Of a DNA stretch of 51,702 nucleotides, positions 23,913 to 37,699 are shown piece after piece. The stretch covers positions 1 to 51,702 of the forward strand of contig JAFSLX010000056.1 in assembly GCA_017448185.1 (NCBI GenBank), given 5' to 3'. How positions within the stretch are numbered: position 1 is the first letter of the stretch; each line of letters opens with the position of its first letter. The stretch is from Bacteroidales bacterium (GTDB taxonomy: Bacteria > Bacteroidota > Bacteroidia > Bacteroidales > P3). The notes below the pieces were generated by a model. The model was not told where the DNA came from. It saw only the letters and a list, made by a program, of their open reading frames with translations, and made no database searches. The position numbers and the translations under genes are program-made.

Positions 23913-24826
23913 TAACCCTTGAGGAGCTCAACGCAGGCATTGTGCTTGTCATCGACAAGCCACGCCAATGGACCTCCTTTCAGGCCGTTAACAAAATCAA
24001 AGCAGCCATTCGCAACATATACGGGATCAAGAAATTCAAAATAGGACATGCAGGCACTCTCGACCCATTGGCCACGGGAGTGCTGCTTGTTTGTGTGGGC
24101 AAAGCCACCAAACTAATACCACAGTTACAAGATGGCGAGAAGGTGTATACCGGCACAATAGTCTTCGGTGCCACCACGCCCTGTTACGACATGGAACGAG
24201 CTATCGACCAGACTTTTCCCTACGAACACATTACTCCTGCCCTGCTTGACGAGAAGCGCAAAAAATTTATTGGTCGAATAGATCAAGTGCCACCGATGTA
24301 TAGTGCAGTAAAAATTGCAGGTCAGCGCGCCTACGAATATGCCCGTATCGATGACCCCACGGTCACCATCCAGCCAAAGACAGTTGAAATCAAGGAGTTC
24401 GACATAACAGCTTTTCGCGAGGGCGACAGGTTGGACCGCCGGCATCCTGCCGGCATGGATGATTTGGACCGCCGGCATGACAAACCATCGCTTCAATTGT
24501 ACAACAACCCACAATGCATTGTCCCCGAGTACTTGCCGCAGGTCGATTTCCGTATTCGCTGCGGCAAGGGGACGTATATCCGCAGCATTGCCCGCGACTT
24601 TGGCATCGCGTTAGGCAGCGGGGCGTTCCTTTCGGCGCTGCGACGGGAACAGGTTGGGGGGTATACAATAGACAAAGCGCTCAATCTGAATGAAATACAG
24701 ACTTTCTTTTCGGGTAATAGACTGACAGACAACACTATCTCCGTATCATCTCCGTATCATCTCCGTATCAACTCCGAGTCAACTCCGTTCGAAGACGGAC
24801 AAATCCCGGATGGGAGTTGTCGATGA
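23909..24826 (+). CDS. truB: tRNA pseudouridine-55 synthase with repeat-derived insertion and tail
   Basis: Makes pseudouridine-55 in the T arm of tRNAs. The core is intact: [25 protein letters not shown] (catalytic Asp about residue 51), [10 protein letters not shown] and [15 protein letters not shown]. At 305 residues it is longer than typical Bacteroidales TruB (about 240). Two additions explain this. Around residues 175-190 one and a half copies of the 25-nt palindrome are translated ([16 protein letters not shown]). The last ~30 residues are encoded by an 11-nt tandem array (24737-24791). The ATG at 23909 overlaps the uppP stop. Two terminator hairpins follow. The enzyme is probably functional, because the insertion lies outside the catalytic motifs. 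Confidence 0.95.
24432..24478 (+). repeat. 25-nt palindromic element inside truB, one and a half copies
   Basis: A complete copy at 24432-24456 begins TGGACCGCCGGCAT and ends TGCCGGCAT. The first 14 nt recur at 24465-24478. Both are in the coding strand of truB and keep the frame open. GCCGGCA occurs as an inverted pair, so the element can fold into a short hairpin. Confidence 0.9.
24737..24791. repeat. 11-nt tandem array (class C) at the 3' end of truB
   Basis: Three identical ATCTCCGTATC units (24737-24769) are followed by AACTCCGAGTC and AACTCCGTTCG. The period is 11 nt, as in the class A intergenic repeats, but with a different sequence. AACTCC at 24781-24786 can pair with GGAGTT at 24813-24818. 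Because 11 is not a multiple of 3, successive units are read in different frames in truB. Confidence 0.85.
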
Positions 24827-24852: not shown

Positions 24853-24887
24853 CTCCGCAAGATGTTGACCATCTTGCGGAGTTTTTT
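24853..24887 (+). terminator. Strong Rho-independent terminator of the ftsX-truB unit
   Basis: A perfect 12-bp stem, CTCCGCAAGATG (24853-24864) with CATCTTGCGGAG (24870-24881), a TTGAC loop and six T. It separates the dnaN/ftsX-truB genes from the tubulin-like locus. Confidence 0.93.
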
Positions 24888-25332: not shown

Positions 25333-25911
25333 ATGTATATGTTCTGGGGAATACTGATCGGTGTACTGTTGACAGTCTTGACTGTTGTACTTGCCATGGC
25401 CTTGGGCAAGAAGGATTTCACTCCATTGTCGTATGTCGTCATCGTGCTGGCACTCATAGTTTTCTGCATCGAAGGCATTGGCTTGGTCAACGCCATCAAT
25501 GCACGCAAGAATGCGGACAACACCGTGACGGCGCTGCAGGAGGCGGCCCTGACCTACATTTCGGGCGACAGCCAGAACTACCGTCTCGGTCTCGCCGAGG
25601 CCACGGGCGTGAAAATAGGCCTCAGGCTCCTCTTCCCTTCTGTGGCGGGCTACATCGAGCCTGCCGACATAGCTGGCCACACACTGGCAGAAAGCAGCGA
25701 AGTGCTCAAGGCGGCCGTGCTGCGCAACGCCAGCCACAAAATCTGGATGAACATTCTTTATATGGCTATCACTCTCGTACTGGCCACCGTGCTCACCTGC
25801 GTCACCATGGGCATGGGCGGCGGTGGCCGCAGTCACAGGGGCAATCGAAGCGGACGTGTGGCCGTACATGGCCGTGCTCCACGTGCCGGCCACCGTGGCA
25901 GTAGACGATAA
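25333..25911 (+). CDS. Three-helix membrane protein upstream of the tubulin-like gene
   Basis: A 192-residue protein with transmembrane helices at about 3-23, 33-53 and 138-160. A soluble region of ~85 residues lies between helices 2 and 3 (NAINARKNADNTVTALQEAA). The C-terminus has a Gly4 run and is rich in Gly and Arg (RSHRGNRSG). I do not recognise the family. The ATG at 25333 has AGGAAGG 9 nt before it and starts directly at the first helix; the in-frame ATG at 25291 would add 14 unlike residues. It precedes the tubulin-like gene by 60 nt, part of which is a 25-nt palindrome copy. Inference: a membrane partner or anchor for the tubulin-like protein. Confidence 0.65.
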   Translation: MYMFWGILIGVLLTVLTVVLAMALGKKDFTPLSYVVIVLALIVFCIEGIGLVNAINARKNADNTVTALQEAALTYISGDSQNYRLGLAEATGVKIGLRLLFPSVAGYIEPADIAGHTLAESSEVLKAAVLRNASHKIWMNILYMAITLVLATVLTCVTMGMGGGGRSHRGNRSGRVAVHGRAPRAGHRGSRR

Positions 25912-25916
25912 AAAAA

Positions 25917-25941
25917 TGGACCGCCGACATCCTGCCAGCAT
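25917..25941 (+). repeat. 25-nt palindromic element, degenerate copy
   Basis: Begins TGGACCGCCGACATCC and ends TGCCAGCAT. Two substitutions relative to the main form (GGC to GAC, CGG to CAG) keep the hairpin symmetrical. It is intergenic, between the membrane protein and the tubulin-like gene. Confidence 0.85.
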
Positions 25942-25971
25942 AAAAAAAGAATAATTTAATACTAAATAGCA

Positions 25972-28900
25972 ATGAAAAAATTAGATTCTACACGACCCAA
26001 CCACATCCTCATTGGACTTGGCGGCACCGGCGGCAAGGTGCTTAAAGCTTTCCGTAAGCGCCTTTGGGAAGAATTCCCCAAGGTGGAAGACCGTCGCAAA
26101 CTCTCCATCGGATTCGTCTATGTCGACTCTACCGACGAGATGATGAAACCCGGCGACCCCACATGGAAGGTCTTCGGACAGAGTGCCCAGTTCGAGGAGT
26201 CGGAGTTTGTCAACATCAAGACCACCGATCTTGGCATGATACTGAACAATCCCGATGCTTTCCCGGGATTGAAGAATATCGTGAAGAACGGCGAGATGAT
26301 GAAGAAGACCCTTGGCGAGGTGGGTGCCGCTGCCGGACAGAAGCGCCGTGCCGGCCGCATCCTCTTTGCATCGAATATCAGCAAATACCTCGGTGCTGTA
26401 AAGGCACAGTATGAGAAAATCACTTCGGTGAGCGGTAACAAAGGCGCATGCCACATCCACATCTTTACAGGCTTGGCCGGCGGTACCGGCTCGGGCAGCA
26501 TCATCGATGCGGTGGCCCAGCTTCGTGCCGATGCCTCGTTCAGCGGCAGCAGCACCGAGATTACGGTTTATGCCATGGTGCCCGAACTCGATATCCCGGC
26601 GGGATGCCAGGCCGGCCGCTACCATCAGAACGGCTATGCCGCCCTGTGTGAGCTTTCGGCTTTGAACATCGGTCACTATTTGCCCTGCGATGTCAAGACG
26701 GGTGCCGAGCATGTAAACCTCAACATTATGGCCAACCGTCAGTTCGGACTGATGGTTTATTCGAACGTCAATGAGAACGGTGCCGTGGTAAACTCGTTCA
26801 GCGAACTGCCCAAGCTGCTGGCCGACACGGTCTATTTCTCGGTCTTCATGCAGAACAAGAGCGGTGTGACCGATGACTTCCTGCGTGGCCTTTCGTGCGA
26901 GAATATCAATGACTTCTGTGTCGAGTACAATTCCAACTCCAAAGGAAATGACAAAGAACGTGCACGTACCAAGGCTGTCAGTTCGTTTGGCATCAAGCGC
27001 ATTGTCTATCCCGAGCAGCGGGTGGTGGAACACATCAGCTACACTTTGGCCGACAGCGTGTTCAACCAAATGGCCTACAACAACTACAAGGACGACTTCG
27101 GCTTCACCGAGGAGCCTCAGCGCAAAGATTATGAGGCCCTCTATATCAAGAACGACAAGAACATGCGCGACTGGAAGCTCGACGACAGCTTCCTGATGCT
27201 CAACGAGCGTATTCTCGACACTGACAAGAAGTTTGAGAAAATCGACGAATACTGGAAGAATCAGGCCGATTTCTACAGCTATGACGATGCCAAGAACGCC
27301 GACAGTGTGCCGATGCACTATTTGGAGCAGTTTATGCTGGAGAAGTACCAGACAGCCTTCCGTTTCAAGCAGGGTGTGGAAGAATACTATGCCGACAAGG
27401 GCAAGGACGAGATTTTGAAGACTCAGGCTGAATATATCGTCGAGGCTATTGAGCAGAGCCTCTACACCCAGTGGTACGAAGGTCAGCTCTCGCTCACCGA
27501 CCTGTTGAAGGTCAGCGATGCCATCTTGGCCTACATCCGTAACCGCCGTGCCAAGATACCGAATGACATTCAAGCTACCGACGATAAGATTACCGGTTTC
27601 CAGAAGGAGCTGGCAGACAATCTCGAGTTCGCCACCCACCTGAATCTGATGCAGAAAGCCACGGGCAAGCCCAAAGAGTGCTATACCGACCATCAGGCCA
27701 TCCTCGCCGACCTCTATACCGAGAAGACTAACCGTGTGGCCCTTGAGTTTGCCCAGCGGCTGCTCAGCAAGTTGCAGGTGCACTTCGAGGAATTCCACGA
27801 CCAAGTGCAGATGTTTGTCGGTGCCTTGGCCCTCTGCATGGACGAGGCCGCCAAGCGCATCGCCGACCGTAACCAGCAGCAAGGCAGCATCAAGGATATG
27901 AAGCAGGCTGTGATTGAGGTTCGCGAAGACGCCAAAGTCAATGCCTTTGAGAAGAGCCTCCTGCTCAACCGCGGCACCATGGAAACCCTCTCCAGCGCCC
28001 TGCGCCACGAACTGGTAGGTAGCAAGACATACGCCCATTTTGACGAGTTGACAAAGGGTCTCTCTATTGACAAGGCTTTCGATGTGGTCGACGAGGTGAT
28101 GGGTCAGAAAGTGCGCGAAATCCATGAGGTGGAGTGCACTAAGGATAAACTTATCGGTATCAACATTCTGCAGCAGTTGCAGAAAGTGCTCACCAACGAG
28201 GATGAAATTCGAGCCTTTGCCAAGGATGCCGTAGAGAAGAGCGGTGTGTTCATACTGCTTGACGACACGCAGTTGCAGAAAACCATCAACAATAACCCCA
28301 ACCCCGTGGCCCAGCCCGAGTCGATGAACCGCAAGACTATCTTGGTCACGTTGCCCAGCTATGAGGGAGACGACTCGCTTAAGGAGTTCGCCAAGAAGCT
28401 TGAGGACGCTTTCCGCAGTGCTTTCGGCAATGCCACCCCTGGCAGCACCATCAAGTTCGACATCGAAGGCGAGGCCAAGAATGAGATTACCATCGCCGCC
28501 GTGAAGTACTGCTTCCCGTTGCGTGCCATTCGCTGGATGCCCACCTTTGAAACCGAGTATAAGGCGATGACGGAGAATCCCAATCCCCTTGAGGCTAAGG
28601 AAGCCCGCGTGCTTCTGCACAGCGAGGGTGACGGTACCTGTCTGCCTCCCATCATGGGTGAGAAGCAGCTTACCGCACAGGAGTTCACCCCCTACTTCTT
28701 CGCCGCAGCAGCCATGGGTATCCTCAGCGAGGCCGACGATGCCATCAACGGACACGGTTGGTGCATGACCGAGAAGGACGACTGGGGCACCCCCACCAAC
28801 ACCTATCTGGCCAAGCTCTTTACCGACCTGCCCACCAGCGACAACATGACCTCCGATCGCCGCAACCGTATTCAGGACATGGTCGACGAGATGCTTAAGA

Positions 28901-29061
28901 ATCCCGAATTGCCAATGGCCGAGCGCAACGGTTATGTCGAGAATGTGAAGATGCTGATGCGTGACGTGGTTAGCAAAGAATGCTCCAGTCCCAGTTCGCC
29001 CAAGTATCAGCAGTTTGGCAACGAGGCAAAGAAAGCATTGGAAATGATTACCAAAAAATAA
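25972..29061 (+). CDS. Large tubulin/FtsZ-superfamily protein (Tubulin_2/FtsZ-like type)
   Basis: A 1029-residue cytosolic protein. The N-terminus has a GTPase-type loop (HILIGLGGTGGKVLKAF, residues 11-27). The tubulin signature is FTGLAGGTGSGSIIDAV, with AGGTGSG at 169-175. A strand and helix pattern follows (TVYAMVPELDIP), as in the GTP-binding half of tubulin and FtsZ. About 600 further residues are mostly helical and lack known motifs. It is far longer than FtsZ (about 400). I recall large tubulin-like families of this kind being proposed to act in membrane remodelling rather than division. Neighbours are a membrane protein before it and a zinc-ribbon/membrane protein after it. GTP binding and polymerisation are inferred, not shown. 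Confidence 0.8.
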   Translation: MKKLDSTRPNHILIGLGGTGGKVLKAFRKRLWEEFPKVEDRRKLSIGFVYVDSTDEMMKPGDPTWKVFGQSAQFEESEFVNIKTTDLGMILNNPDAFPGLKNIVKNGEMMKKTLGEVGAAAGQKRRAGRILFASNISKYLGAVKAQYEKITSVSGNKGACHIHIFTGLAGGTGSGSIIDAVAQLRADASFSGSSTEITVYAMVPELDIPAGCQAGRYHQNGYAALCELSALNIGHYLPCDVKTGAEHVNLNIMANRQFGLMVYSNVNENGAVVNSFSELPKLLADTVYFSVFMQNKSGVTDDFLRGLSCENINDFCVEYNSNSKGNDKERARTKAVSSFGIKRIVYPEQRVVEHISYTLADSVFNQMAYNNYKDDFGFTEEPQRKDYEALYIKNDKNMRDWKLDDSFLMLNERILDTDKKFEKIDEYWKNQADFYSYDDAKNADSVPMHYLEQFMLEKYQTAFRFKQGVEEYYADKGKDEILKTQAEYIVEAIEQSLYTQWYEGQLSLTDLLKVSDAILAYIRNRRAKIPNDIQATDDKITGFQKELADNLEFATHLNLMQKATGKPKECYTDHQAILADLYTEKTNRVALEFAQRLLSKLQVHFEEFHDQVQMFVGALALCMDEAAKRIADRNQQQGSIKDMKQAVIEVREDAKVNAFEKSLLLNRGTMETLSSALRHELVGSKTYAHFDELTKGLSIDKAFDVVDEVMGQKVREIHEVECTKDKLIGINILQQLQKVLTNEDEIRAFAKDAVEKSGVFILLDDTQLQKTINNNPNPVAQPESMNRKTILVTLPSYEGDDSLKEFAKKLEDAFRSAFGNATPGSTIKFDIEGEAKNEITIAAVKYCFPLRAIRWMPTFETEYKAMTENPNPLEAKEARVLLHSEGDGTCLPPIMGEKQLTAQEFTPYFFAAAAMGILSEADDAINGHGWCMTEKDDWGTPTNTYLAKLFTDLPTSDNMTSDRRNRIQDMVDEMLKNPELPMAERNGYVENVKMLMRDVVSKECSSPSSPKYQQFGNEAKKALEMITKK

Positions 29062-29082
29062 CCATTAAAAACAAATATTATT

Positions 29083-29727
29083 ATGGCAAGAAATCAAGGA
29101 AGAAACGCCAACATAGTTTACGGTATCTGCACCAACACCAGCGGCAAGGAAGACGGAACTCCTTGTTCGAAGTGTCAGAGCAAAGAGAAACAGGCCATCC
29201 GCGCCAGCAAAGACTTCGTCTGCGAAGAATGCGGTGAGCCTCTGAAGAAAATCGAGGTGAAGGATGGCAACAAGAAACTGCCAATCATCATCGCCGCGGC
29301 AGTGGTGGTCATCGGCGGAGGATTGGGTGCCTTCTTGGGACTGAGCGGCGGCAAGGATGAGAAACCCGTCGTCGTGGATACGGTGACCATTGACAATCCA
29401 CAACCTGAAGTGACCGAACCCGAGGTGACTGAACCCGAACCCGTTGTGAAACCTGAGCCAGAAAAGGCACAAACACCAAAACCAGCTTCCGGATTCAGCC
29501 TTGGCTGGGGCAGTTATAGCGGCCCTATGCAGGGTGGCAAACCCCACGGCGTTGGCGGTACTATCAAGGTGAAGCAGAGTTATAGCATCGACCTCAAGGA
29601 CGGCCGAGGAACTATGCTCGAAGTCAACCCGGGCGAGACCATTGAGAACACTAAGTTCGAGAACGGCCGCCTGCGGGCAGGTGAGTTACATCGCGCCGAC
29701 AACTCACGTAAATGGTTTAACTGTTAG
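29083..29727 (+). CDS. Zinc-ribbon, single-helix membrane protein with MORN-like C-terminus
   Basis: A 214-residue protein. The cytosolic N-terminus has a probable zinc ribbon: Cys16, Cys28 and Cys31, then Cys47 and Cys50 in VCEECG. A transmembrane helix follows at 66-88. Next comes a linker of Pro, Glu and Val (about 95-135), then a MORN-like motif GSYSGPMQGGKPHGVG and a beta-rich end. It begins 21 nt after the tubulin-like gene. The topology would place the zinc ribbon with the tubulin-like protein and the MORN-like part in the periplasm, so it could link the two compartments (inference). A second MORN protein lies at 37283-37558. Confidence 0.7.
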   Translation: MARNQGRNANIVYGICTNTSGKEDGTPCSKCQSKEKQAIRASKDFVCEECGEPLKKIEVKDGNKKLPIIIAAAVVVIGGGLGAFLGLSGGKDEKPVVVDTVTIDNPQPEVTEPEVTEPEPVVKPEPEKAQTPKPASGFSLGWGSYSGPMQGGKPHGVGGTIKVKQSYSIDLKDGRGTMLEVNPGETIENTKFENGRLRAGELHRADNSRKWFNC

Positions 29728-29734
29728 TTTTGAT

Positions 29735-29759
29735 TGGACCGCCGGCATCCTGCCGGCAT
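29735..29759 (+). repeat. 25-nt palindromic element, intergenic copy
   Basis: A perfect copy of the main form in plus orientation, 7 nt after the stop of the zinc-ribbon gene and 6 nt before the ATG of the next gene. Confidence 0.93.
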
Positions 29760-29765
29760 ATAAAA

Positions 29766-30728
29766 ATGAACGTCGTAGTCCGGATAAATGCAATCATTCT
29801 GTGCCTCCTCCTTTTGGGGGGAGGCCGGGATGCTTATGCACAACGGACAATCGACGAGGTGCACCGCCAGTTTATCAAGCGGCTCACTGTTGGGGCCGAA
29901 CGGGACGAGATGGACGGAAAGCCTTTCCGTACTTTTATGAAGGAGGAGAAGATTGCATTGCTTGAAGGCAATTTCACCCTTTTGAAAGAACTTTGCTATG
30001 ATACTACAGCGGTGATGAGTATCGACTTGATGGACGGCAAACGGTATGCCGTGCGCTTTTTCCGCGACAGTTTACATTCGGCCGCCTTGTCGTATCCGGC
30101 GAGTTACGAACTCATACTCGACATAAAAAGTTTCGAGATGGAGGATCGTTTGTCTGATGCCGTCCGACGAACAATTGTTCCAAAGGAAACACCATTCCAA
30201 GTGGCTCATGAGTTATTGGAACAGATGGGTAATTCTCCTGTTTATATCCTTTCCGGAACAACGTACCTTTTGCCAGAACTCAACAACAACCGCTATTACG
30301 TGAAAGTCGATGATGCGACATTCAGTTTGCTGTATAGCGAAGACTTTCCGATTGAAACCATGGCAAATCTGGTGACAGGAAACGAAATAGAAAGCGGTAT
30401 TGACATCAACTTCAAGATGGTCAAATACAACTATCGGACGGAAGAATTCACCGTACCGCTTCGCCAATGGATAACCTTCTGTCTGAATGAAGGGTGCTCC
30501 CCCTACTTCGGATTAATCAGTCTCGATACAAGTCTTGCCACGTGTGTGTTGGTGATGAAAAACGAAACCTTGGGTTATATTCATGCGATGAAGATGACAT
30601 TCGACCCGGCTATCATTTCTACACAATCGGACAAGGCGGGCAATCGTCGCATGATAAGGGCCAGATTAAACAGCTATATACCTATTTACAATGTAAAATC
30701 AATATTTCAGGAAGATGATGAGAAGTAA
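29766..30728 (+). CDS. Exported protein of unknown function (320 residues)
   Basis: Signal peptide VVVRINAIILCLLLLGGGRDAYA, then a mature domain of about 295 residues with alternating helices and strands. Segments include FMKEEKIALLEGN, FFRDSLHSAALSYPASYEL, YYVKVDDATFSLLYSED and FDPAIISTQSD. I do not recognise the family. The ATG at 29766 directly follows a 25-nt palindrome copy; an upstream in-frame ATG at 29730 would translate the palindrome and is unlikely. The next gene begins before this one ends. Its place in the run suggests a periplasmic part of the tubulin-like system. Confidence 0.65.
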   Translation: MNVVVRINAIILCLLLLGGGRDAYAQRTIDEVHRQFIKRLTVGAERDEMDGKPFRTFMKEEKIALLEGNFTLLKELCYDTTAVMSIDLMDGKRYAVRFFRDSLHSAALSYPASYELILDIKSFEMEDRLSDAVRRTIVPKETPFQVAHELLEQMGNSPVYILSGTTYLLPELNNNRYYVKVDDATFSLLYSEDFPIETMANLVTGNEIESGIDINFKMVKYNYRTEEFTVPLRQWITFCLNEGCSPYFGLISLDTSLATCVLVMKNETLGYIHAMKMTFDPAIISTQSDKAGNRRMIRARLNSYIPIYNVKSIFQEDDEK

Positions 30729-31593
30729 TGATGCCGGCAGGATGCCGGCGGTCCAAGGGAAAAAATTTGCGTTGACAGCTTGTTTGCTGTTTGTTTGTTC
30801 GACACTTATGGCACAAGGGCCGTCGGTAACGAAGCAAATTAATAATATAAAACGCAATCCGCAATATTTATACGAGGAAGCCACTCACGAGAACGCCGCT
30901 GAGGCTGAAAGTATGGCATACGAGTTGTTGTTTCAGCGTGTGAATGATTACGTGGCCTCGAGGGGCAAGTTGAAGAATGCCAAAAATGTCGTTGTAAAGG
31001 ATATCAAACAGAAAGGCGAGGTGCTTTCGATGATGCGAGGTACGATGTACAGGGTGTTCGTTTATGTTTTGAAGTCAGATATCGAGGGCGTTACGAACAC
31101 GACGGTTATCAATAGTGGCAGTGGGACGACGGTGACGGTTGCGGATGGTGCAACCTCACTTGTGGATGTACAGCAGGTAAACCCATTACCCCAAACAACC
31201 CAGCCGAAGGTGGAAAACAAGGATGCCGGCAAGATGCCGGCGGTCCAATCGGTTGCGGAGGAGAAGGATGCCGGCAGGATGCCGGCGGTCCAATCACCGT
31301 TGACAGGATGGAAACAGGAGGCAATCGAGAGGCTTCTCGAATGCAAGGATGTTGCAGCTGTCCGTGCCAGACTCAATCGCATGAAGGCCGAATATAAGGT
31401 GAAGCGATACGGCAGCGCCGACAATTGTCCATCCGTAAGTGAATCGTGGTGGGCAATTTTTGACGGAAACGGAAATTTGGTGACGATTCTCGGGCCGGGA
31501 ACAAGAGAACGAATTGATTATAAGACGATGCAATATTCGTCGCTCGACAGTTTCAAGGGGATGAATGCCCTATGGTTTAATCTTGCAAAATGA
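30715..31593 (+). CDS. Exported LPP20/FlgT-N-like protein carrying three palindrome-encoded peptides
   Basis: A signal peptide (KKFALTACLLFVCSTLMAQ) is followed by ESMAYELLFQRVNDYV and VVKDIKQKGEVLSMMRGTMYRVFVYVLKS, resembling the LPP20/FlgT N-terminal fold of outer-membrane-associated proteins. A Thr/Val-rich linker leads to DAGKMPAVQ and DAGRMPAVQ, each encoded by a 25-nt palindrome copy, then a C-terminal domain (ERLLECKDVAAVRARLNRM). A third copy lies before the signal peptide. Starting at 30715 the frame overlaps the previous gene by 14 nt. The ATG at 30742, inside the palindrome, gives a normal signal peptide beginning MPAVQGKKF and is an equally good start. Function unknown; probably periplasmic. 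Confidence 0.65.
   Translation: MMRSNDAGRMPAVQGKKFALTACLLFVCSTLMAQGPSVTKQINNIKRNPQYLYEEATHENAAEAESMAYELLFQRVNDYVASRGKLKNAKNVVVKDIKQKGEVLSMMRGTMYRVFVYVLKSDIEGVTNTTVINSGSGTTVTVADGATSLVDVQQVNPLPQTTQPKVENKDAGKMPAVQSVAEEKDAGRMPAVQSPLTGWKQEAIERLLECKDVAAVRARLNRMKAEYKVKRYGSADNCPSVSESWWAIFDGNGNLVTILGPGTRERIDYKTMQYSSLDSFKGMNALWFNLAK
30731..30755 (-). repeat. 25-nt palindromic element at the start of the LPP20-like gene
   Basis: A perfect copy in reverse orientation, read in frame as DAGRMPAVQ. It contains an in-frame ATG at 30742 that can serve as the start codon of the gene it sits in. Confidence 0.93.
31223..31247 (-). repeat. 25-nt palindromic element within a coding region (copy 1 of 2)
   Basis: Reverse orientation, one substitution (AGG to AAG), translated in frame as DAGKMPAVQ in the linker of the LPP20-like protein. 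Confidence 0.93.
31268..31292 (-). repeat. 25-nt palindromic element within a coding region (copy 2 of 2)
   Basis: Reverse orientation, perfect copy, translated as DAGRMPAVQ. It lies 20 nt after the preceding copy with the same frame and orientation, which could reflect duplication of a 45-nt unit. Confidence 0.93.
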
Positions 31594-31617
31594 TGCCGGC
31601 AGGATGCCGGCGGTCCA
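31593..31617 (-). repeat. 25-nt palindromic element between two exported-protein genes
   Basis: Reverse orientation, perfect copy, starting at the last base of the LPP20-like gene's stop codon and ending 13 nt before the ATG at 31631. An ATG within it (31604) is in frame with the downstream gene. Confidence 0.93.
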
Positions 31618-31630
31618 AATGAGATACAAT

Positions 31631-32602
31631 ATGAAAAGGATTTTTTTGACACTTATCACACTGGCGACATTCCTGCCCTTTGCACTACGGGCACAGGATG
31701 AGGTTGCATTTGAATTTTCGGACGGCATTGATGCCGGTAAACTGAAAGGCAAGATGGAACGCAATGTTTCGATGCTTCTCACTGCGATCAACCGAGCGGA
31801 GTCGACGGGGAAGGATATCAACTATGGCGGGATTGATATAGACAATCTTGCCTCGCAGAGTATCGGCATGATGTGGAACAACGTGCATTTCCGCATTGAG
31901 GATGACGATATCGTTGAGCACTGTTTGCGGGTCAAAGCCAGCAACGGAGCAACTATTGGATACCAAGTCCGCAATATCGCTGTTGAGATGAAACCCCTGG
32001 ATGATTCGTATGTGGGCGAGCTGAATCAGGAGGTCTGCATCAATTTCGATAAAACAGGACGGATTAGCGACTTCAACATCACCATGGGTCTGCAGCAATA
32101 TTTGAAACTGATGAAGGAAGGGGAACGTCTGAACGACGCGGACCGCCGTATGCAGATTCTGCATTGGGTTGAACAATTCCGCAATGCCTATTGCGAAAAG
32201 AATATCCGGTTTATGGAAGATGTGTTCAGCGATGATGCGCTTATTATAACTGGCAAGGTGGTTAAGCGTGTTCCAACGGACATGAAGCCCGTGAACGTGG
32301 AGTATACCACCCAAGGGAAGCAGCAGTACCTTGCGGGCCTGCGCCGAGTGTTCCGCAACAATGGTTATATCAATGTCAAATTCGATGAAATTGAAATCAA
32401 ACGTCACGCAGCCAAGCCCAATTTTTATGGTGTGACGCTTAAACAAGGATGGTTTACTAAAAATTACAGCGATGAAGGTATCGTATTCATCGTGTGGGAT
32501 TTCACGGATGAGTTTAACCCTAAGATAATGGTACGTACCTGGCAGCCGATGCAGGTGGATGAAAGCGAAATCTTTACACTGAAAAACTTCAAATTGAACT
32601 AA
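31631..32602 (+). CDS. Exported protein with an NTF2-like C-terminal domain
   Basis: A 323-residue protein with a signal peptide (KRIFLTLITLATFLPFALRAQ). The mature N-terminal part (about 25-165) holds MLLTAINRAESTGKDINYGG and IGYQVRNIAVEM. The C-terminal ~150 residues look NTF2/SnoaL-like: VEQFRNAYCEKNIRFMEDVFSDDALIITG, then YLAGLRRVFRNNGYINVKFDEIEI and a final strand with DFTDEFNPKIMVRTWQP. Such a fold usually makes a ligand pocket or dimer surface. ATGs at 31619 and 31604 (the latter inside the palindrome) are also in frame. It is followed after 3 nt by the WG-repeat gene. Specific role unknown. Confidence 0.7.
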   Translation: MKRIFLTLITLATFLPFALRAQDEVAFEFSDGIDAGKLKGKMERNVSMLLTAINRAESTGKDINYGGIDIDNLASQSIGMMWNNVHFRIEDDDIVEHCLRVKASNGATIGYQVRNIAVEMKPLDDSYVGELNQEVCINFDKTGRISDFNITMGLQQYLKLMKEGERLNDADRRMQILHWVEQFRNAYCEKNIRFMEDVFSDDALIITGKVVKRVPTDMKPVNVEYTTQGKQQYLAGLRRVFRNNGYINVKFDEIEIKRHAAKPNFYGVTLKQGWFTKNYSDEGIVFIVWDFTDEFNPKIMVRTWQPMQVDESEIFTLKNFKLN

Positions 32603-32605
32603 TTG

Positions 32606-33961
32606 ATGAAATATTTTCTTCTGTTTTTTCTTACTTTGTCGCAATCATTTGCTATTTGTGCTCAAGAGTTAATAATAAAAGACTCGTTCCATGTAGTACT
32701 AAATGATTTAACAGCAGCACAAGAAAAGTTTCGGAGAAATGACTATAATGATAATCCATGCGCCTTGATTTTATTGGGACTTGTGGATAAAAGTGCAACC
32801 TTCCATGGTGATGTAGTTCACACAGAATATAAACAAGGTGAATGGTGGGTATACATGAGTGAAGGAAGTCAATACCTGAAAATAAAGACTGACGGAAATT
32901 TACCTAAGGAGATTGAATTCGGTCCACTTAAGAAATCAACCACTTATAAAGTAAGTTTTTTGTCAAATACACTCGTTCAAAATACTTTTGTCAGGGAACC
33001 ACTATTGCCTTTTTATGAGAAAGTACAGGATGAATGGAAGTTAGGATATTTGGATTCAGATGGAAATATAGCGATACCTGCCAGGTTGGATGGACGTGGT
33101 ACAATGTTTGAGAACGGAACTGCACGGGTGGAATATCAGGGTAACTGGTATTTTATTGATAAAAGAGGCCAACAGGTGAAGAGTCCCAGTTGGAATTATG
33201 ACGGTCTACATTTGGTACAAAAGGATAATAAGTTTGGATATGCAGATAAGGATGGATCTGTTATTATTCCGACAAAGTATCGTTTTGCTGAAGAATTTAA
33301 TGAAGGTAGAGCCAGAGTTGAGACGGACTATAATATACAATATATTACGTCCCGAGGGGATTGTGTCTATAGTACCCAATGTGCTGCAGGAAGAAAATAT
33401 AACAATGGATTAGCATTAGTTGCTTATTATTATTATTATTTTATTGATACCTGTGGTAAAAGACAATTAGGCCCTTTTTTAGATGCTAACAACTTTTCCG
33501 AAGGATTAGCATCAGTAATAACAGAAGAAGGAGAAAAAGGATATATTAATGCTAAAGGAGAATTCGTAATTTCAGGCATTTATGGCTATTCCTTTTCTGA
33601 AGGGTTGGCATATATTGGCAAAGGGGATTATATTAATAAAAAAGGAAAAGTTGTAATCAGGACAAGGTATAAAGACTGCGACCATTTTCACGAAGGTTTA
33701 GCAATTGTTTACAAAGGGGAAAAAGAAAAAAAGAGATGTGGTTATATAGACAAACGTGGTAGAGTAATAATCCCTGTTATGTATCGATCAGCAGAGCCTT
33801 TTCATATGGGTTTTGCTCGCGTAGAATCAGAAATGTATAATATGGTTTGGACTAAGTATGGTGAAATCAAAACATATCCATGGGTCTGGATCAATAATAA
33901 AGGTGAGATTATTAAAGATAAGAATGGTAGACCATATCGTAGCAAACCTAATAATTATTGA
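32606..33961 (+). CDS. Exported WG-repeat protein, A/T-rich
   Basis: A 451-residue protein with a signal peptide (KYFLLFFLTLSQSFAICAQ). An N-terminal module of about 95 residues (CALILLGLVDKSATFHGD, EYKQGEWWVYMSEG, then LKIKT) is shared with the next gene's product. From residue 140 on there are about seven WG-type units, for example YLDSDGNIAIPA, YADKDGSVIIPTKYRFAEEF, YINAKGEFVISG and YIDKRGRVIIPVMYRSAEPF. WG repeats form small beta units thought to mediate binding at the surface or in the periplasm. Base composition and codon endings are clearly A/T-rich compared with genes on either side. A TTG at 32603 is an alternative start. Confidence 0.85.
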   Translation: MKYFLLFFLTLSQSFAICAQELIIKDSFHVVLNDLTAAQEKFRRNDYNDNPCALILLGLVDKSATFHGDVVHTEYKQGEWWVYMSEGSQYLKIKTDGNLPKEIEFGPLKKSTTYKVSFLSNTLVQNTFVREPLLPFYEKVQDEWKLGYLDSDGNIAIPARLDGRGTMFENGTARVEYQGNWYFIDKRGQQVKSPSWNYDGLHLVQKDNKFGYADKDGSVIIPTKYRFAEEFNEGRARVETDYNIQYITSRGDCVYSTQCAAGRKYNNGLALVAYYYYYFIDTCGKRQLGPFLDANNFSEGLASVITEEGEKGYINAKGEFVISGIYGYSFSEGLAYIGKGDYINKKGKVVIRTRYKDCDHFHEGLAIVYKGEKEKKRCGYIDKRGRVIIPVMYRSAEPFHMGFARVESEMYNMVWTKYGEIKTYPWVWINNKGEIIKDKNGRPYRSKPNNY

Positions 33962-33967
33962 AGAAAA

Positions 33968-35233
33968 ATGAAACGAATAGTATTGTTGATTATTGCAATT
34001 GCAATTTCTTTATTAAGTCATGCACAGGAACTGAAGGTGATTGAGTTCCGGGCCGATATGACGATGACCGATGCCGTGCAGTACCCCAAAGAGGATGCCA
34101 ACGGTGAAAGATGCGGCCTGATACGCATGGGGCTTGTGATTCCTTCTGCCCAGTTTGAAGGTGATATTATCTCGGCGGAGTACAAGGGCAGCGAGTGGTG
34201 GATTTATATGATTGACGGAGCCAATTGGATTACCGTGAAGACAAAAAAATACCTGCCGCTCCGCTATGAATTTGAACCAATCAGGAGTAATGTCACCTAC
34301 GTGATGAACATCGAACGTCCGCAGGTGTCCTATGACGGTCCAACCGGAATAGTGAAAATCGATTGTAATATCAAGGATGCCGATGTCTATATCGACGGTG
34401 AGAAGATGAGTAGCGTAACACCATACGAGTATAAAGGACCGGAAGGTCAACATGAAGTGGAAATACGGGCGAATGGCTATAACCGCGAACGTACGACCAT
34501 AGAAATCAAACTTAACAAGAAACTGTCTCATTCTGTAACCCTTCGTCATGCAGGAAGTTTTCAGTTGGAAGGCATCAGCTACGAAATGGTCAAGGTGGAG
34601 GGAGGCTCGTTCCTGATGGGTTCAGCCGAAAAACCGGAAGATAAAAATTACCCGCTGAACTATGCCCAGCCACAACATGAAGTTGTACTTCGACCATACA
34701 GCATTGGTAAAACCGAGGTGACGCAGGCTTTGTGGGAGAAGGTGATGGGAAGCAACCCGTCGGTACATCAGGGGCCGAACCTCCCAGTGGAAAATGTTTC
34801 ATACGAGGACTGCCTGGAGTTTATCCGCCGGCTGAACCAGCTAAGCGGCCAGAGCTTCCGTCTGCCCACCGAAGCAGAATGGGAATATGCAGCCCGCAAC
34901 CGCGGCGCAAACAAACCTGACAAATGTTCAGGTGGTTCGGCCTCGAAGGTGGCGCAAACAGAGGCAGTCAGCGCTGTCGGTGGCAAGAAGGCCAACGCCC
35001 TCGGAATCTTCGACATGAGCGGCAATGTGGCCGAATGGTGTGCCGACTGGATAGCCTCCTACCCTTCCGGTAAAACGGTGGCATCGCAGGGGCCTGACAG
35101 CGGTACGCAACGGGTGGTTCGCGGCGGTCATGCGGGCGGCAACGAGTGGAGCATGTTCTCCTCCTCACGCAGTCACCGCAATCCTGACGAGCCGTCGCAA
35201 TACATCGGTCTCCGCCTGGCTATGGATAATTGA
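33968..35233 (+). CDS. Exported PEGA and SUMF1 (FGE-sulfatase fold) protein
   Basis: A 421-residue protein with a signal peptide (1-19). An N-terminal module (20-115) is shared with the WG-repeat protein: CGLIRMGLVIPSAQFEGD, SEWWIYMIDGANWITVKT. A PEGA domain follows (126-193: VYIDGEKMSSVTPYEYKGPEG, HEVEIRANGY). The SUMF1 domain spans 204-421: VEGGSFLMGS, GKTEVTQALWEKVMGSNPS, RLPTEAEWEYAAR, DMSGNVAEWCADW, then GLRLAMDN. Bacteroidota use this fold both for modifying enzymes and as a structural part of T9SS (GldJ/GldK type). With PEGA and no sulfatase nearby, a structural or binding role in the envelope is more likely. It follows the WG gene by 6 nt. Confidence 0.85.
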   Translation: MKRIVLLIIAIAISLLSHAQELKVIEFRADMTMTDAVQYPKEDANGERCGLIRMGLVIPSAQFEGDIISAEYKGSEWWIYMIDGANWITVKTKKYLPLRYEFEPIRSNVTYVMNIERPQVSYDGPTGIVKIDCNIKDADVYIDGEKMSSVTPYEYKGPEGQHEVEIRANGYNRERTTIEIKLNKKLSHSVTLRHAGSFQLEGISYEMVKVEGGSFLMGSAEKPEDKNYPLNYAQPQHEVVLRPYSIGKTEVTQALWEKVMGSNPSVHQGPNLPVENVSYEDCLEFIRRLNQLSGQSFRLPTEAEWEYAARNRGANKPDKCSGGSASKVAQTEAVSAVGGKKANALGIFDMSGNVAEWCADWIASYPSGKTVASQGPDSGTQRVVRGGHAGGNEWSMFSSSRSHRNPDEPSQYIGLRLAMDN

Positions 35234-35255
35234 TTATAAAACAAAACATTTTCTA

Positions 35256-35279
35256 AGTCGGCAGGATGCCGGCGGTCCA
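35256..35279 (-). repeat. 25-nt palindromic element, truncated or mutated copy
   Basis: Reverse orientation; the left end reads AGTCGGCAGG instead of ATGCCGGCAGG, the rest is intact (GATGCCGGCGGTCCA). It lies between the PEGA-SUMF1 and FlgT-like genes and is the last copy in the window. Confidence 0.88.
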
Positions 35280-35296
35280 ATTAAAAATTCAAAAAA

Positions 35297-36892
35297 ATGA
35301 AAAAAACAGCTATTTTTGTTATTGCGTTGTTGCTTGCAACCGTCGGATTTGCACAAAATCCCAACAACCCCAACGCCAAGCTCAACCTCGTTGTCGGTGG
35401 CTTCTCGGGCGATTATGCTTCGGATCAACGTGTCAACGTCCTTCACGAATTGACCAAGTCACACCGCGCCAATGTAATTGAACAGTCGGCCTACGAAAGC
35501 CTGCCGAAAGATGTGCGCGCCAAGATGCGTATAGATGCAGTCATCACAGGAAAGTGCGATATAAAGACTGAGCGCAAGGAGACAACGCGTACGGACAAGA
35601 ACGGCAACAAAAAGGTTGTGCCGCTCTATGAAACGAAAATGACGACATCGCTCACGTTTACCGATCCGCGAGACGGCAAGGCCATCTTGACCCCGGTGTT
35701 CGAGAATTCGGAAACCGATGAGGACCGCAACAAGAGTATCAATTCTGCCATTGAAGTGGGTCACACCCGGGGAAAGCAACTGATGCTGCTTATGGTTCAG
35801 CTGTATACTCTTGACGAATATCTTCAGGAGACATACCCTGTAACAGGGAAAATAGTCACGGTAAACGAGAGCAAGAAAGGCAAAGCCGAGAGCGTCACAA
35901 TCAATCTCGGTTCGCGCGATGCAATTTATCGTGGACAGACATTCGAAGTCGTCTTTTACAAAAACGGCAAGCAGAAGAACTACGGACGCATGCGTGTCCG
36001 CGAAATCAACAACGATTCGCTTGCAACATGCATCGTCGAAAAGGACGGCAAGAACATCATGGCGGCTGTTGAGTCCGGCGAGGATGTCAACATCACCAGC
36101 TATGTCCAGGCAGTGAGCCTTAACGGTATAGTGCGTGTCGAACAGGAAGCCCCGCGCCTTAACATTTCGGGAGCCGACGATGCCAAGAAACGCGATGTGG
36201 CCTTTGGCAGCATTACCGGAGGTGCACCGTCCGACTTTGTCACCGCGGTGAAGGAAAACCTGAAAACCAACCGTCGCGTCAACGCTTACATGCTCGGTAC
36301 CCCCGCTTGTCCCGACAACGCAAAGCTTGACGGTATCATCTGTGGCTACTATACCGGAATGGACAAGTCCAGCCGTCTGGTCAAAGCCGAAGAACATCTC
36401 CTTCAACTGAAGGACTATACGGAGTATACCACCAGCATCGGCTGGTATCTTTTCATTGTCGATCCAAACACCGGCAACATAGTCTACTCGGGAAACGAAG
36501 GAACCTCTGCCTCCAGCGACAAATCCGCCGAAGATGCCACCCGGCAGGCCATTCAGAACGCAGCCACTATCACCTCGTCCACCTACAGCGCCTTCCCCCT
36601 CATCGGAACAATCCTTACCGTTGACGACGCCGACCCCCAGAAAGCCAAAGAAGTATCCATCGACCTGGGAAGCAACTATCCCGTCTACAAGGGACTGCGG
36701 TTTGACGTATACTCACAGGATGCTGCTGGCGGATGGGAGAAGATTGGCCGTCTTGAAGTGTCAAATGTCGTTGACGGCACACATTCGTCTTGTACCGTTA
36801 AAAAGGGTGGAGAGGTAATCCAGAAAGTCGTCGAGAATGGAACCCCCGTCCGCATAACCACATACATCCTCAAAGAATTCTTTGAACTATGA
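35297..36892 (+). CDS. Exported protein with duplicated CsgG/TolB-like plus FlgT-C-like halves
   Basis: A 531-residue protein with a signal peptide (KKTAIFVIALLLATVGFAQ). It is an internal duplication. Half 1 (about 28-270) has NLVVGGFSGDY, RIDAVITGKCDI, then PVTGKIVTVNES, INLGSRDAIYRGQTFEVVFY and a strand ending VNITSYV. Half 2 (about 299-531) has DVAFGSITGG, KLDGIICGYYTG, then LIGTILTVDDA, IDLGSNYPVYKGLRFDVYS and VRITTYI. The first part of each half resembles the CsgG/TolB N-terminal fold; the second resembles the FlgT C-terminal domain of outer-membrane ring components. It probably acts in the periplasm or at the outer membrane. The next gene overlaps by 4 nt (ATGA). Confidence 0.7.
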   Translation: MKKTAIFVIALLLATVGFAQNPNNPNAKLNLVVGGFSGDYASDQRVNVLHELTKSHRANVIEQSAYESLPKDVRAKMRIDAVITGKCDIKTERKETTRTDKNGNKKVVPLYETKMTTSLTFTDPRDGKAILTPVFENSETDEDRNKSINSAIEVGHTRGKQLMLLMVQLYTLDEYLQETYPVTGKIVTVNESKKGKAESVTINLGSRDAIYRGQTFEVVFYKNGKQKNYGRMRVREINNDSLATCIVEKDGKNIMAAVESGEDVNITSYVQAVSLNGIVRVEQEAPRLNISGADDAKKRDVAFGSITGGAPSDFVTAVKENLKTNRRVNAYMLGTPACPDNAKLDGIICGYYTGMDKSSRLVKAEEHLLQLKDYTEYTTSIGWYLFIVDPNTGNIVYSGNEGTSASSDKSAEDATRQAIQNAATITSSTYSAFPLIGTILTVDDADPQKAKEVSIDLGSNYPVYKGLRFDVYSQDAAGGWEKIGRLEVSNVVDGTHSSCTVKKGGEVIQKVVENGTPVRITTYILKEFFEL

Positions 36893-37323
36893 GCAATCTG
36901 AAAGCGTTTGCAATCATTGTTTCCCTATTGGTGGGAACAACCGTTCTTCATGCACAGAATGACGTGGAAGTGGCCTTGATTGAACAAGACGGAAAAGTGG
37001 CCTATTTCGCCGTCGATGCATCAGCGGCGAAGAGCGACGAAGTCGCCACCGTCGCCTTCGCCACCCTTTTCCGAACATTGCTCGACAAAGGTGTCGAGGG
37101 ATTCAACGGAGGACGAAAACTGATGGATGTGAACAACGCCAAGTGGAGGGAAGACTTCCTCAAAGGCAAGAATCCCAAGTATATGACATACATCAAAGGC
37201 TACCAAACCGAAGGCGAGCCGATGAAAAATACTGTCGGCGAGTATCGGGCCACCGTGCTGGTGCGCGTCAACGTCGAATTCCTTATCCGTCAGCTGAAAG
37301 CCTATGGGGTGTTGAAAGGTTAA
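36889..37323 (+). CDS. Small exported LPP20/FlgT-N-like protein
   Basis: A 144-residue protein with a signal peptide (LKAFAIIVSLLVGTTVLHAQ). The mature part has VATVAFATLFRTLLDKGVEGFNGG, MTYIKGYQTEGEP and VRVNVEFLIRQLKAYGVLKG. An A-x3-L helix, a Tyr-containing strand and a final V-x-V strand with amphipathic helix resemble LPP20/FlgT N-terminal domains, as in the 292-residue protein at 30715. It is coupled to the FlgT-like gene by ATGA. It appears to be the last gene of the tubulin-like run, and a MORN gene on the other strand overlaps its 3' end by 41 nt. Fold assignment is tentative. Confidence 0.65.
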   Translation: MSNLKAFAIIVSLLVGTTVLHAQNDVEVALIEQDGKVAYFAVDASAAKSDEVATVAFATLFRTLLDKGVEGFNGGRKLMDVNNAKWREDFLKGKNPKYMTYIKGYQTEGEPMKNTVGEYRATVLVRVNVEFLIRQLKAYGVLKG

Positions 37324-37558
37324 CGTATTCGCTCACAGTGTTATATCCAGCGCACAGCACATGCAGGTCGCCGTCGCCGTGCCGTTTGCCGTGTTCAAAC
37401 TCACCCTCGTATTTTATGTCGCCTTCGTCGGCAAACCGACGCTCTTCCCGGGGATCTTTCTCCACAACGTACAGAAGTTTGCCCCTGCCATGAGGCCGTC
37501 CCGCCTCATCGACATCCCCCTGATAGAGCAACTTCGTGATATATACCTTTCTATTCAT
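37283..37558 (-). CDS. Small MORN-repeat protein
   Basis: A 91-residue protein without signal peptide. Two MORN-type motifs are visible: YQGDVDEAGRPHGRGKLLY and YEGEFEHGKRHGDGDLH, separated by a charged segment (EKDPREERRFADEG). MORN motifs form short beta-hairpins that often contact membranes or other proteins. The ATG at 37558 is preferred because the -7 element (37567-37574) lies between it and the in-frame upstream ATG. It overlaps the 3' end of the exported-protein gene on the plus strand by 41 nt. A MORN-like motif also ends the zinc-ribbon membrane protein at 29083, so it may belong to the same system. Confidence 0.6.
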   Translation of the reverse strand: MNRKVYITKLLYQGDVDEAGRPHGRGKLLYVVEKDPREERRFADEGDIKYEGEFEHGKRHGDGDLHVLCAGYNTVSEYVNLSTPHRLSADG

Positions 37559-37566
37559 TTCAAATG

Positions 37567-37574
37567 CAAAAATA
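37567..37574 (-). promoter_or_regulatory. -7 element for the MORN gene
   Basis: TATTTTTG on the minus strand, 8 nt before the ATG at 37558, matches TAnnTTTG. The leader would be extremely short. A TTTG lies 25 nt upstream, slightly too far. Confidence 0.5.
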
Positions 37575-37699
37575 CATAAATTCTTGAGATACACACAGAC
37601 AAATGAAAAAAAATTGGCAGGGCGCACACGTGGGTACGCCCCAACCTCAAATGATTATCAAGTGACTGGTTTTCAGTGTCGGTAAGTAGCCCCTCCTTC

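Follow-up and report, generated by a model that had tools for sequence, protein, structure and literature searches.

RESULTS

Organization of the ten-gene cluster

The stretch of DNA analyzed here (the window) comprises 51,702 nucleotides of contig JAFSLX010000056.1 from a Bacteroidales bacterium (assembly GCA_017448185.1), and our subject is a cluster of ten genes within it that encodes a tubulin-like protein, a small membrane protein (TM3), a protein in which a zinc ribbon is joined through one predicted membrane helix to a MORN tail (the connector, ZNR), and seven proteins with signal-peptide-like starts. An earlier note, made from the sequence alone, had described ten co-directional genes behind a terminator, spaced from overlaps to about 60 nt, and a three-helix membrane protein at their head. 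This layout was confirmed: the ten frames are separated, in order, by 60, 21, 38, -14, 25, 3, 6, 63, and -4 nt, and the hairpin and the hydrophobic segments are present (Table 1).

Table 1. Features of the cluster and of its upstream flank, in window coordinates
Feature	Position	Strand	Remarks
Terminator-like hairpin, 12 pairs	24853-24881		Upstream of cluster
Ten-gene cluster	25333-37323	+	All ten reading frames present, co-directional
TM3, three-helix membrane protein, 192 aa	25333..25911	+	Three hydrophobic segments
Tubulin_2/FtsZl1 protein, 1029 aa	25972..29061	+	Second gene
T4 GTP-binding loop, residues 170-175, GGTGSG	26479..26496	+	Five invariant residues
Helical insert inside predicted tubulin fold, about residues 370-785	27079..28326	+	From secondary structure of model; limits approximate, by eye
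Connector ZNR, 214 aa: zinc ribbon, one membrane helix, linker, MORN tail	29083..29727	+
Zinc ribbon, residues 1-50, predicted cytosolic	29083..29232	+	Four invariant Cys
Exchange switch-point zone, codons ~46-60	29218..29262	+	Codon-aligned identity profiles of L049 and window
Connector membrane helix, residues 68-86	29284..29340	+	Hydropathy 2.43
Connector MORN tail, predicted periplasmic	29503..29724	+	Profile A7, E 5.9e-31, window among its 15 rows
U320, exported	29766..30728	+
LPP292, exported, 292 aa	30715..31593	+	In order in 14/16 module loci
NTF2-like protein, exported	31619..32602	+	Best conserved among parts aligned; SnoaL_3 E 0.022
N118 + WG-repeat protein, exported	32606..33961	+	WG E 3.2e-34
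N118 + PEGA + SUMF1/FGE (C-type-lectin fold), exported	33968..35233	+	PF03781 9.3e-40, PF08308 6.9e-10
CSG, exported, 531 aa	35297..36892	+	Relatives in L008, L046, L049, L052, L053
LPP144, exported, 144 aa	36889..37323	+	Relatives in L008, L046, L049, L052

A tubulin-like protein of the FtsZl1 family

The assignment of the second gene product to the tubulin/FtsZ superfamily was borne out by a strong match to Pfam PF13809 (Tubulin_2; E 9.8e-53, 180.1 bits against a cut-off of 27). The protein carries the GGTG(S/T)G loop, in which G170, G171, T172, G173, and G175 are invariant across 80 aligned rows, and a hydropathy scan found no long hydrophobic segment in it. Structural matches of its model cover model residues 8-898, with about 290-362 residues aligned; as modeled, the protein has a full tubulin fold, with both the GTPase and the C-terminal domain, and an insert within it. 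An equivalent of the T7 loop at P238/D240 is our guess from conservation in 25 rows. By sequence, the protein belongs to the FtsZl1 family of Makarova and Koonin (PMC2875224), and a later paper likewise equates Tubulin_2 with FtsZl1 (PMC9871819); here and below, cited papers stand for the sections of them that were consulted.

At E 0.001, PF13809 matched 27 of the 190 genomes of the window's family, its own included, and 20 of these 27 exceeded the cut-off; with the window's own tubulin as the query, 5 of 61 genomes matched, again including its own. Of 7993 candidates scored in the protein database, 2085 passed E 0.001, the best 120 of which were listed. Weak, partial PF13809 matches at 11 places, most of them below the cut-off, were left out of the counts. 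Four genomes of family f111 were rejected as carriers of a true relative, the match there covering mainly the middle part of the protein.

Conservation of the gene order

Of the tubulin loci, 17 lie on contigs long enough for comparison, and 16 of these encode the tubulin, zinc ribbon, MORN tail, U320, and NTF2-like protein in that order on a single strand. This excludes a chance neighborhood and runs counter to the refuting outcome named in the earlier note, homologs whose neighbors are never the same membrane and exported proteins. LPP292 sits within this order in 14 of the 16 loci, and 12 of them also carry the same small membrane protein. Ten of the 16 lie in the window's family and the others in six further families of the order (f26, f60, f74, f91, f101, and f105); two near pairs (L007/L008 and L009/L048) reduce the number of independent cases, and L042 and L044, apparently one contig, were counted once. 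Contigs end inside the tubulin gene in L043 and L103, inside the connector gene in L100, and inside U320 in L042. In the nine other module loci of the window's family, the tubulin is 24-39% and the NTF2-like protein 72-83% identical to that of the window; on the cut contig of L042, from the window's genus, the tubulin is 69% identical.

Several loci depart from this arrangement. L010 (G006:C2) is a second tubulin and connector in the genome that holds the full-system locus L007, and there the two genes lie downstream of different genes, exported-looking by eye, with no NTF2-like module. In L099 (G573:C20), a stop codon interrupts the tubulin gene, and the other parts of the cluster are present. 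Eight other FtsZl1 loci of the genus (L011, L047, L050, L051, and L054-L057; 4.6 to 20 kb each) yielded no exported module by tblastn at E 0.001. In four of these (L050, L055, L056, and L057), an exported-looking protein precedes the tubulin and a large protein follows it. The gene ahead of the L055 tubulin encodes a vWA domain (E 3.3e-7), as in the published FtsZl1 system; its counterpart in L050 has no Pfam match, and the large protein after the L050 tubulin holds a papain-like peptidase domain (E 7.1e-18).

The connector and its distribution

The earlier description of the third gene product as a zinc-ribbon, one-helix, MORN protein stood in part. Four cysteines of the zinc ribbon are invariant in all 12 aligned connectors and a single helix is present, while all Pfam zinc-ribbon matches of the window's connector were below the cut-off (best E 0.049) and Pfam MORN was not found in it at E 1; the MORN label rests on alignment with relatives that do match Pfam MORN (L147, E 5.8e-6; L104, E 2.5e-5).

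Presence of the connector parts and of TM3 was tabulated for 54 loci, 21 with the tubulin and 33 without. The zinc ribbon is present in 19 of the 21 tubulin loci, the other two contigs stopping within the tubulin gene, and in 1 of the 33 tubulin-free loci (L109, whose contig begins inside the tubulin gene); TM3 profile matches occur in 15 of 21 versus 0 of 33. These presence counts are partly circular because the profiles came from tubulin loci. For the MORN tail, the counts are 19 of 21 with and 7 of 33 without the tubulin.

Exchange of a cassette with its joint inside the connector gene

Two trees were built from 15 loci, one for the tubulin and one for U320 plus the NTF2-like protein; L099 (internal stop) and L010, L042, L043, L100, L103, and L105 (contigs without the full module) were omitted. 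By tubulin, L097, which belongs to another family, is the partner of the window (support 100/100, 77% identity), and by U320 plus the NTF2-like protein it groups with its own family. L049 pairs by tubulin with L007/L008 (100/100) and by its exported genes with L052/L053 (98/99). Approximately unbiased (AU) tests rejected, on the tubulin tree, the grouping of L049 with L052/L053 (p 8e-96) and of the window's whole family together (p 3e-7) and, on the exported-gene tree, that of the window with L097 (p 1.9e-4) and of L049 with L007/L008 (p 3.2e-4); these p values are indicative because the clades were named after the trees had been seen and because branches are long.

Segment identities, listed in the order tubulin, zinc ribbon, helix, MORN tail, and NTF2-like protein, were 77, 72, 47, 27, and 37% between the window and L097 and 27, 47, 82, 78, and 72% between the window and L009; the corresponding values were 76, 78, 42, 62, and 83% for L049 and L046 and 28, 37, 95, 89, and 93% for L049 and L052. 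In codon-aligned nucleotide comparisons, L049 is 76-85% identical to L046 over codons 1-45 and 50% identical over codons 46-60; to L052, it is 44-69% identical over codons 1-60 and 93% identical from codon 61. The window repeats this pattern against L042 and L009, except for 76% identity to L009 in the first 15 codons. The switch therefore lies in the linker between the zinc ribbon and the membrane helix. Judged from these sequence comparisons, the zinc ribbon is inherited with the tubulin, and the helix and MORN tail mostly with the exported genes. The conflicting trees and the switch point within the gene thus indicate that the tubulin and zinc ribbon were exchanged as a cassette with its joint inside the connector gene.

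One might suppose instead that the tubulin genes and the exported genes are two unrelated adjacent operons with no shared function, since a locus with tubulin and connector alone (L010) and exported-only clusters both exist. We consider this very improbable: order and strand are the same in 16 of 17 loci from seven families, and a single gene, that of the connector, bridges the two halves and has recombined between them.

Connectors with TIR, kinase, or lipoprotein-like N termini

The seven tubulin-free loci with a MORN tail are L105 and L109, both on cut contigs, and L107, L197, L142, L147, and L211. Ahead of helix and MORN tail, L142 has a Ser/Thr kinase domain (Pkinase E 4.7e-28) and L147 a TIR domain (TIR_2 E 3.5e-14, with MORN at E 5.8e-6 on the same chain); L211 likewise has TIR, helix, and MORN (TIR_2 E 4.6e-6, 27.6 bits against a cut-off of 28). 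A single hydrophobic helix lies between the domains, starting at residue 344 (L142), 162 (L147), and 152 (L211). A second protein of the kinase-helix-MORN type is P0146. In L107 and L197, sequence inspection shows a lipobox-like N terminus in place of the zinc ribbon and helix. A second TIR protein, with TPR repeats, adjoins the coupler cluster of L147 (12474-13718, plus strand; TIR_2 E 1.7e-14).

Across 393 genomes of the order, the NTF2-like protein has full-length matches (E below 1e-49) at 16 places. At eight, the genome also has the tubulin; the other eight comprise one kinase coupler (L142), one TIR coupler (L147), five loci with no coupler nearby, and one cut contig (L145). Rows from the kinase, TIR, and lipoprotein-like proteins went into the MORN-tail profile, which matched 10 of 369 genomes. 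Seven of these have the tubulin, two a TIR coupler, and one the kinase coupler; eight of the ten had supplied profile rows, and nine of the ten matches lie within NTF2-like clusters. G244, one of the two genomes outside the profile rows, yielded the second TIR coupler, L211.

These couplers bear on the membrane remodeling that the earlier note had mentioned as proposed for large tubulin-like families. Remodeling has been proposed for FtsZl1 from gene context (PMC2875224); in a remodeling machine of the present kind, the tubulin-like protein would form filaments along the inner membrane, with the connector and TM3 anchoring them, and would shape the envelope together with the exported proteins. 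The predicted tubulin fold, complete down to its C-terminal domain, and the membrane proteins encoded on either side of the tubulin gene accord with this. Such a machine, however, gives no reason to expect that relatives of the exported module lie beside TIR or kinase couplers or lack a nearby coupler, and Pfam recognized no vWA, P-loop GTPase, or OmpA domain in the ten genes. We favor signaling over membrane shaping because TIR and kinase domains occupy the tubulin's place; remodeling found no support here, and we regard it as unlikely.

Cytoskeletal positioning, in which a tubulin polymer would place or move a surface complex used to adhere, capture, or display, with the exported proteins as its working part, appears less likely again. 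It would suit the variable C-terminal domains of the exported proteins and the exported-only versions in other classes of the phylum, where the NTF2-like profile matched 21 of 395 genomes, two with the tubulin; the 19 NTF2-like loci examined outside the order all lack the tubulin, and L197 alone among them carries a MORN tail. Positioning offers no obvious role for the TIR and kinase couplers, however, nor does it sit well with a tubulin as divergent between loci as described above beside a conserved NTF2-like protein.

Exported proteins

The seven proteins encoded after the connector were called exported from hydropathy. The earlier claim of seven exported proteins held insofar as all seven have a hydrophobic 12-residue N-terminal stretch, but only four pass the 19-residue threshold. 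Its WG-repeat and PEGA-SUMF1 assignments were upheld by Pfam; for its NTF2-like assignment, Pfam gave a weak SnoaL_3 match (Table 1). Two proteins taken for LPP20-like, LPP292 and LPP144, have no Pfam LPP20 match at E 1, and for CSG, taken for CsgG/FlgT-like, FlgT_C at E 0.051 was the sole match of that kind, leaving CsgG unconfirmed. In addition, the second half of CSG can be aligned with the first half of a relative.

N118 is a constant N-terminal domain, the N terminus of the WG protein being 32-42% identical to those of relatives' PEGA-type proteins, and it is followed by variable C-terminal domains (WG, PEGA-SUMF1, or Lcl_C). A related, exported-only type of cluster was seen in L108, L110, and L111, and 31 of 393 genomes of the order match just the C-terminal part of the NTF2-like profile. 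Most such matches fall in frames roughly 600 residues long; the one in L110 is LPP20-like (a 613-aa protein scoring 25.5 bits against a cut-off of 25.9), and N118-PEGA proteins adjoin these frames in all three loci.

A repeat element and a downstream frame

A 26-nt palindromic element, ATGCCGGCAGGATGCCGGCGGTCCAA, occurs in eight copies with at most 3 mismatches between positions 24431 and 35280 of the window (chance expectation, 0). At no more than 2 mismatches, all seven copies in the 2.2-Mb genome fall within this interval, and among 211 loci the core of the element was found solely in those covering the window itself. Three copies lie in frame within LPP292 and one in an upstream gene, truB by eye. 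Directly after the last gene, on the minus strand, is a 114-residue frame with MORN repeats (37283-37627; E 3.1e-5). It was rejected as a part of the system, having no separate counterpart in 14 related loci, where matches below E 1 are the connector itself.

DISCUSSION

The connector looks like an inner-membrane link between the tubulin and the exported proteins, as judged from its inheritance, its exchange, and the replacement of its N terminus in sequence comparisons. The earlier note's inference that the tubulin-like protein is coupled through the inner membrane is thereby supported, both by exchange within the connector gene and by the TIR, kinase, and lipoprotein-like N termini. On balance, and with modest conviction, we favor a sensing system that spans the envelope and whose cytosolic output can be interchanged, one output being the tubulin-fold GTPase. 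In such a system, U320, LPP292, the NTF2-like protein, and the N118 proteins would form a periplasmic or surface complex that binds something in the periplasm or outside the cell. The MORN tail would dock on this complex and read its state, the connector helix would span the inner membrane and relay the signal, and the zinc ribbon would hold and control the tubulin-fold GTPase, so that a change outside would alter the nucleotide state or assembly of the tubulin. Physical docking, an outside-to-inside direction, and GTP-driven assembly as the output are inferred, as would be any purpose in defense, immunity, or envelope stress. A narrower version, in which the system is an immune or stress receptor, the tubulin-fold GTPase is the equivalent of the TIR and kinase outputs, an outside ligand triggers nucleotide-dependent assembly, and cassettes are swapped at the linker between zinc ribbon and helix, is a tentative proposal that we would sooner doubt than assert.

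Several observations weigh against a sensing system of this kind. The helix does not always travel with the exported genes (only 47% identity between the window and L052 and 53% between L049 and L053), TM3 follows neither half clearly (57% between the window and L009, 34% between the window and L097), and L010 consists of tubulin and connector without the exported module. The absences of zinc ribbon and TM3 from tubulin-free loci are not circular, but some of those 33 contigs are cut. Just three TIR or kinase couplers were found in the order genomes searched, one with a TIR score just below the cut-off; profile searches found no LPP292 in L142, L147, or L211 and no U320 in L211. Of the order's eight tubulin-free loci with a full-length NTF2-like protein, five (L141, L143, L144, L146, and L148) have no coupler nearby, and 18 of the 19 NTF2-like loci outside the order have no MORN tail; the exported part must therefore be useful without inward signaling. 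The independence of the MORN-profile matches is limited, as only G426 and G244 had not supplied rows, and the G426 contig stops inside the connector gene, its NTF2-like cluster lying on another contig. Our estimate was nevertheless kept because the kinase and first TIR couplers had been found through the NTF2-like gene, without the MORN profile. As for defense, the couplers' PADLOC matches appear to reflect TIR and kinase domains in general, the ten window proteins gave two weak PADLOC matches only (E 0.019 and 0.033), and the flanks of the window, housekeeping genes by eye, show no sign of a defense island.

The FtsZl1 family is known from a predicted vWA/GTPase/OmpA system (Makarova and Koonin 2010, PMC2875224), which resembles ours in its Tubulin_2 family membership, large size, N-terminal GTPase domain, helical middle, and membrane-linked neighbors; Bacteroides caccae is named in that paper, in the legend of the alignment figure. 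In 2010, the T6-H7 elements and any similarity of the C-terminal domain to other family members were not identifiable, whereas the model of the window's protein shows a whole tubulin fold with an insert. We rejected the window locus as a vWA/FtsZl1 system, as vWA, P-loop GTPase, and OmpA were unmatched by Pfam at E 1 in the ten proteins. The literature searched, which excludes most subscription papers, yielded no demonstrated role for the FtsZl1 family.

Tubulins, zinc-ribbon kinases, and extracellular PEGA, NTF2, and FGE domains have already been tied to conflict systems, of which the DO-GTPase and GAP1 are the two conserved components of the DO-GTPase/GAP1-N2 type (Kaur et al. 2020, PMC7159879). 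Shared with those systems are membrane-near tubulin-domain proteins; PEGA, NTF2, FGE, GYF, and zinc-ribbon kinase domains; and fibronectin repeats, here in one cluster (L007). Pfam found neither DO-GTPase nor GAP1 in the ten window proteins, its coverage of both being unconfirmed. The word MORN does not occur in the main text of that paper, and the sections consulted say nothing of TIR, kinase, and tubulin replacing one another on a single connector. The SUMF1/FGE fold in an exported protein is shared with the type IX secretion system ring lipoprotein PorK/GldK, an identity rejected at 68.6 bits for NCBIfam TIGR03525 against a cut-off of 350. In the FGE/C-type-lectin antigen sensors of diversity-generating retroelement conflict systems (PMC10907252), the domain differs from that of the window, which is exported; no such retroelement was noticed at the window, where no dedicated search was made.

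Within the same literature, we found no description of this gene composition or of the connector, its exchange joint, and its TIR and kinase versions. The FtsZl1 family and tubulins in membrane-bound conflict systems are already known, and the assembly seen here would be a new one. The comparison yields a testable wiring, with the zinc ribbon expected to contact the tubulin, the MORN tail expected to contact the exported complex, and a natural recombination site between them, and the TIR and kinase versions make the question of whether a tubulin can be a signaling output directly testable.

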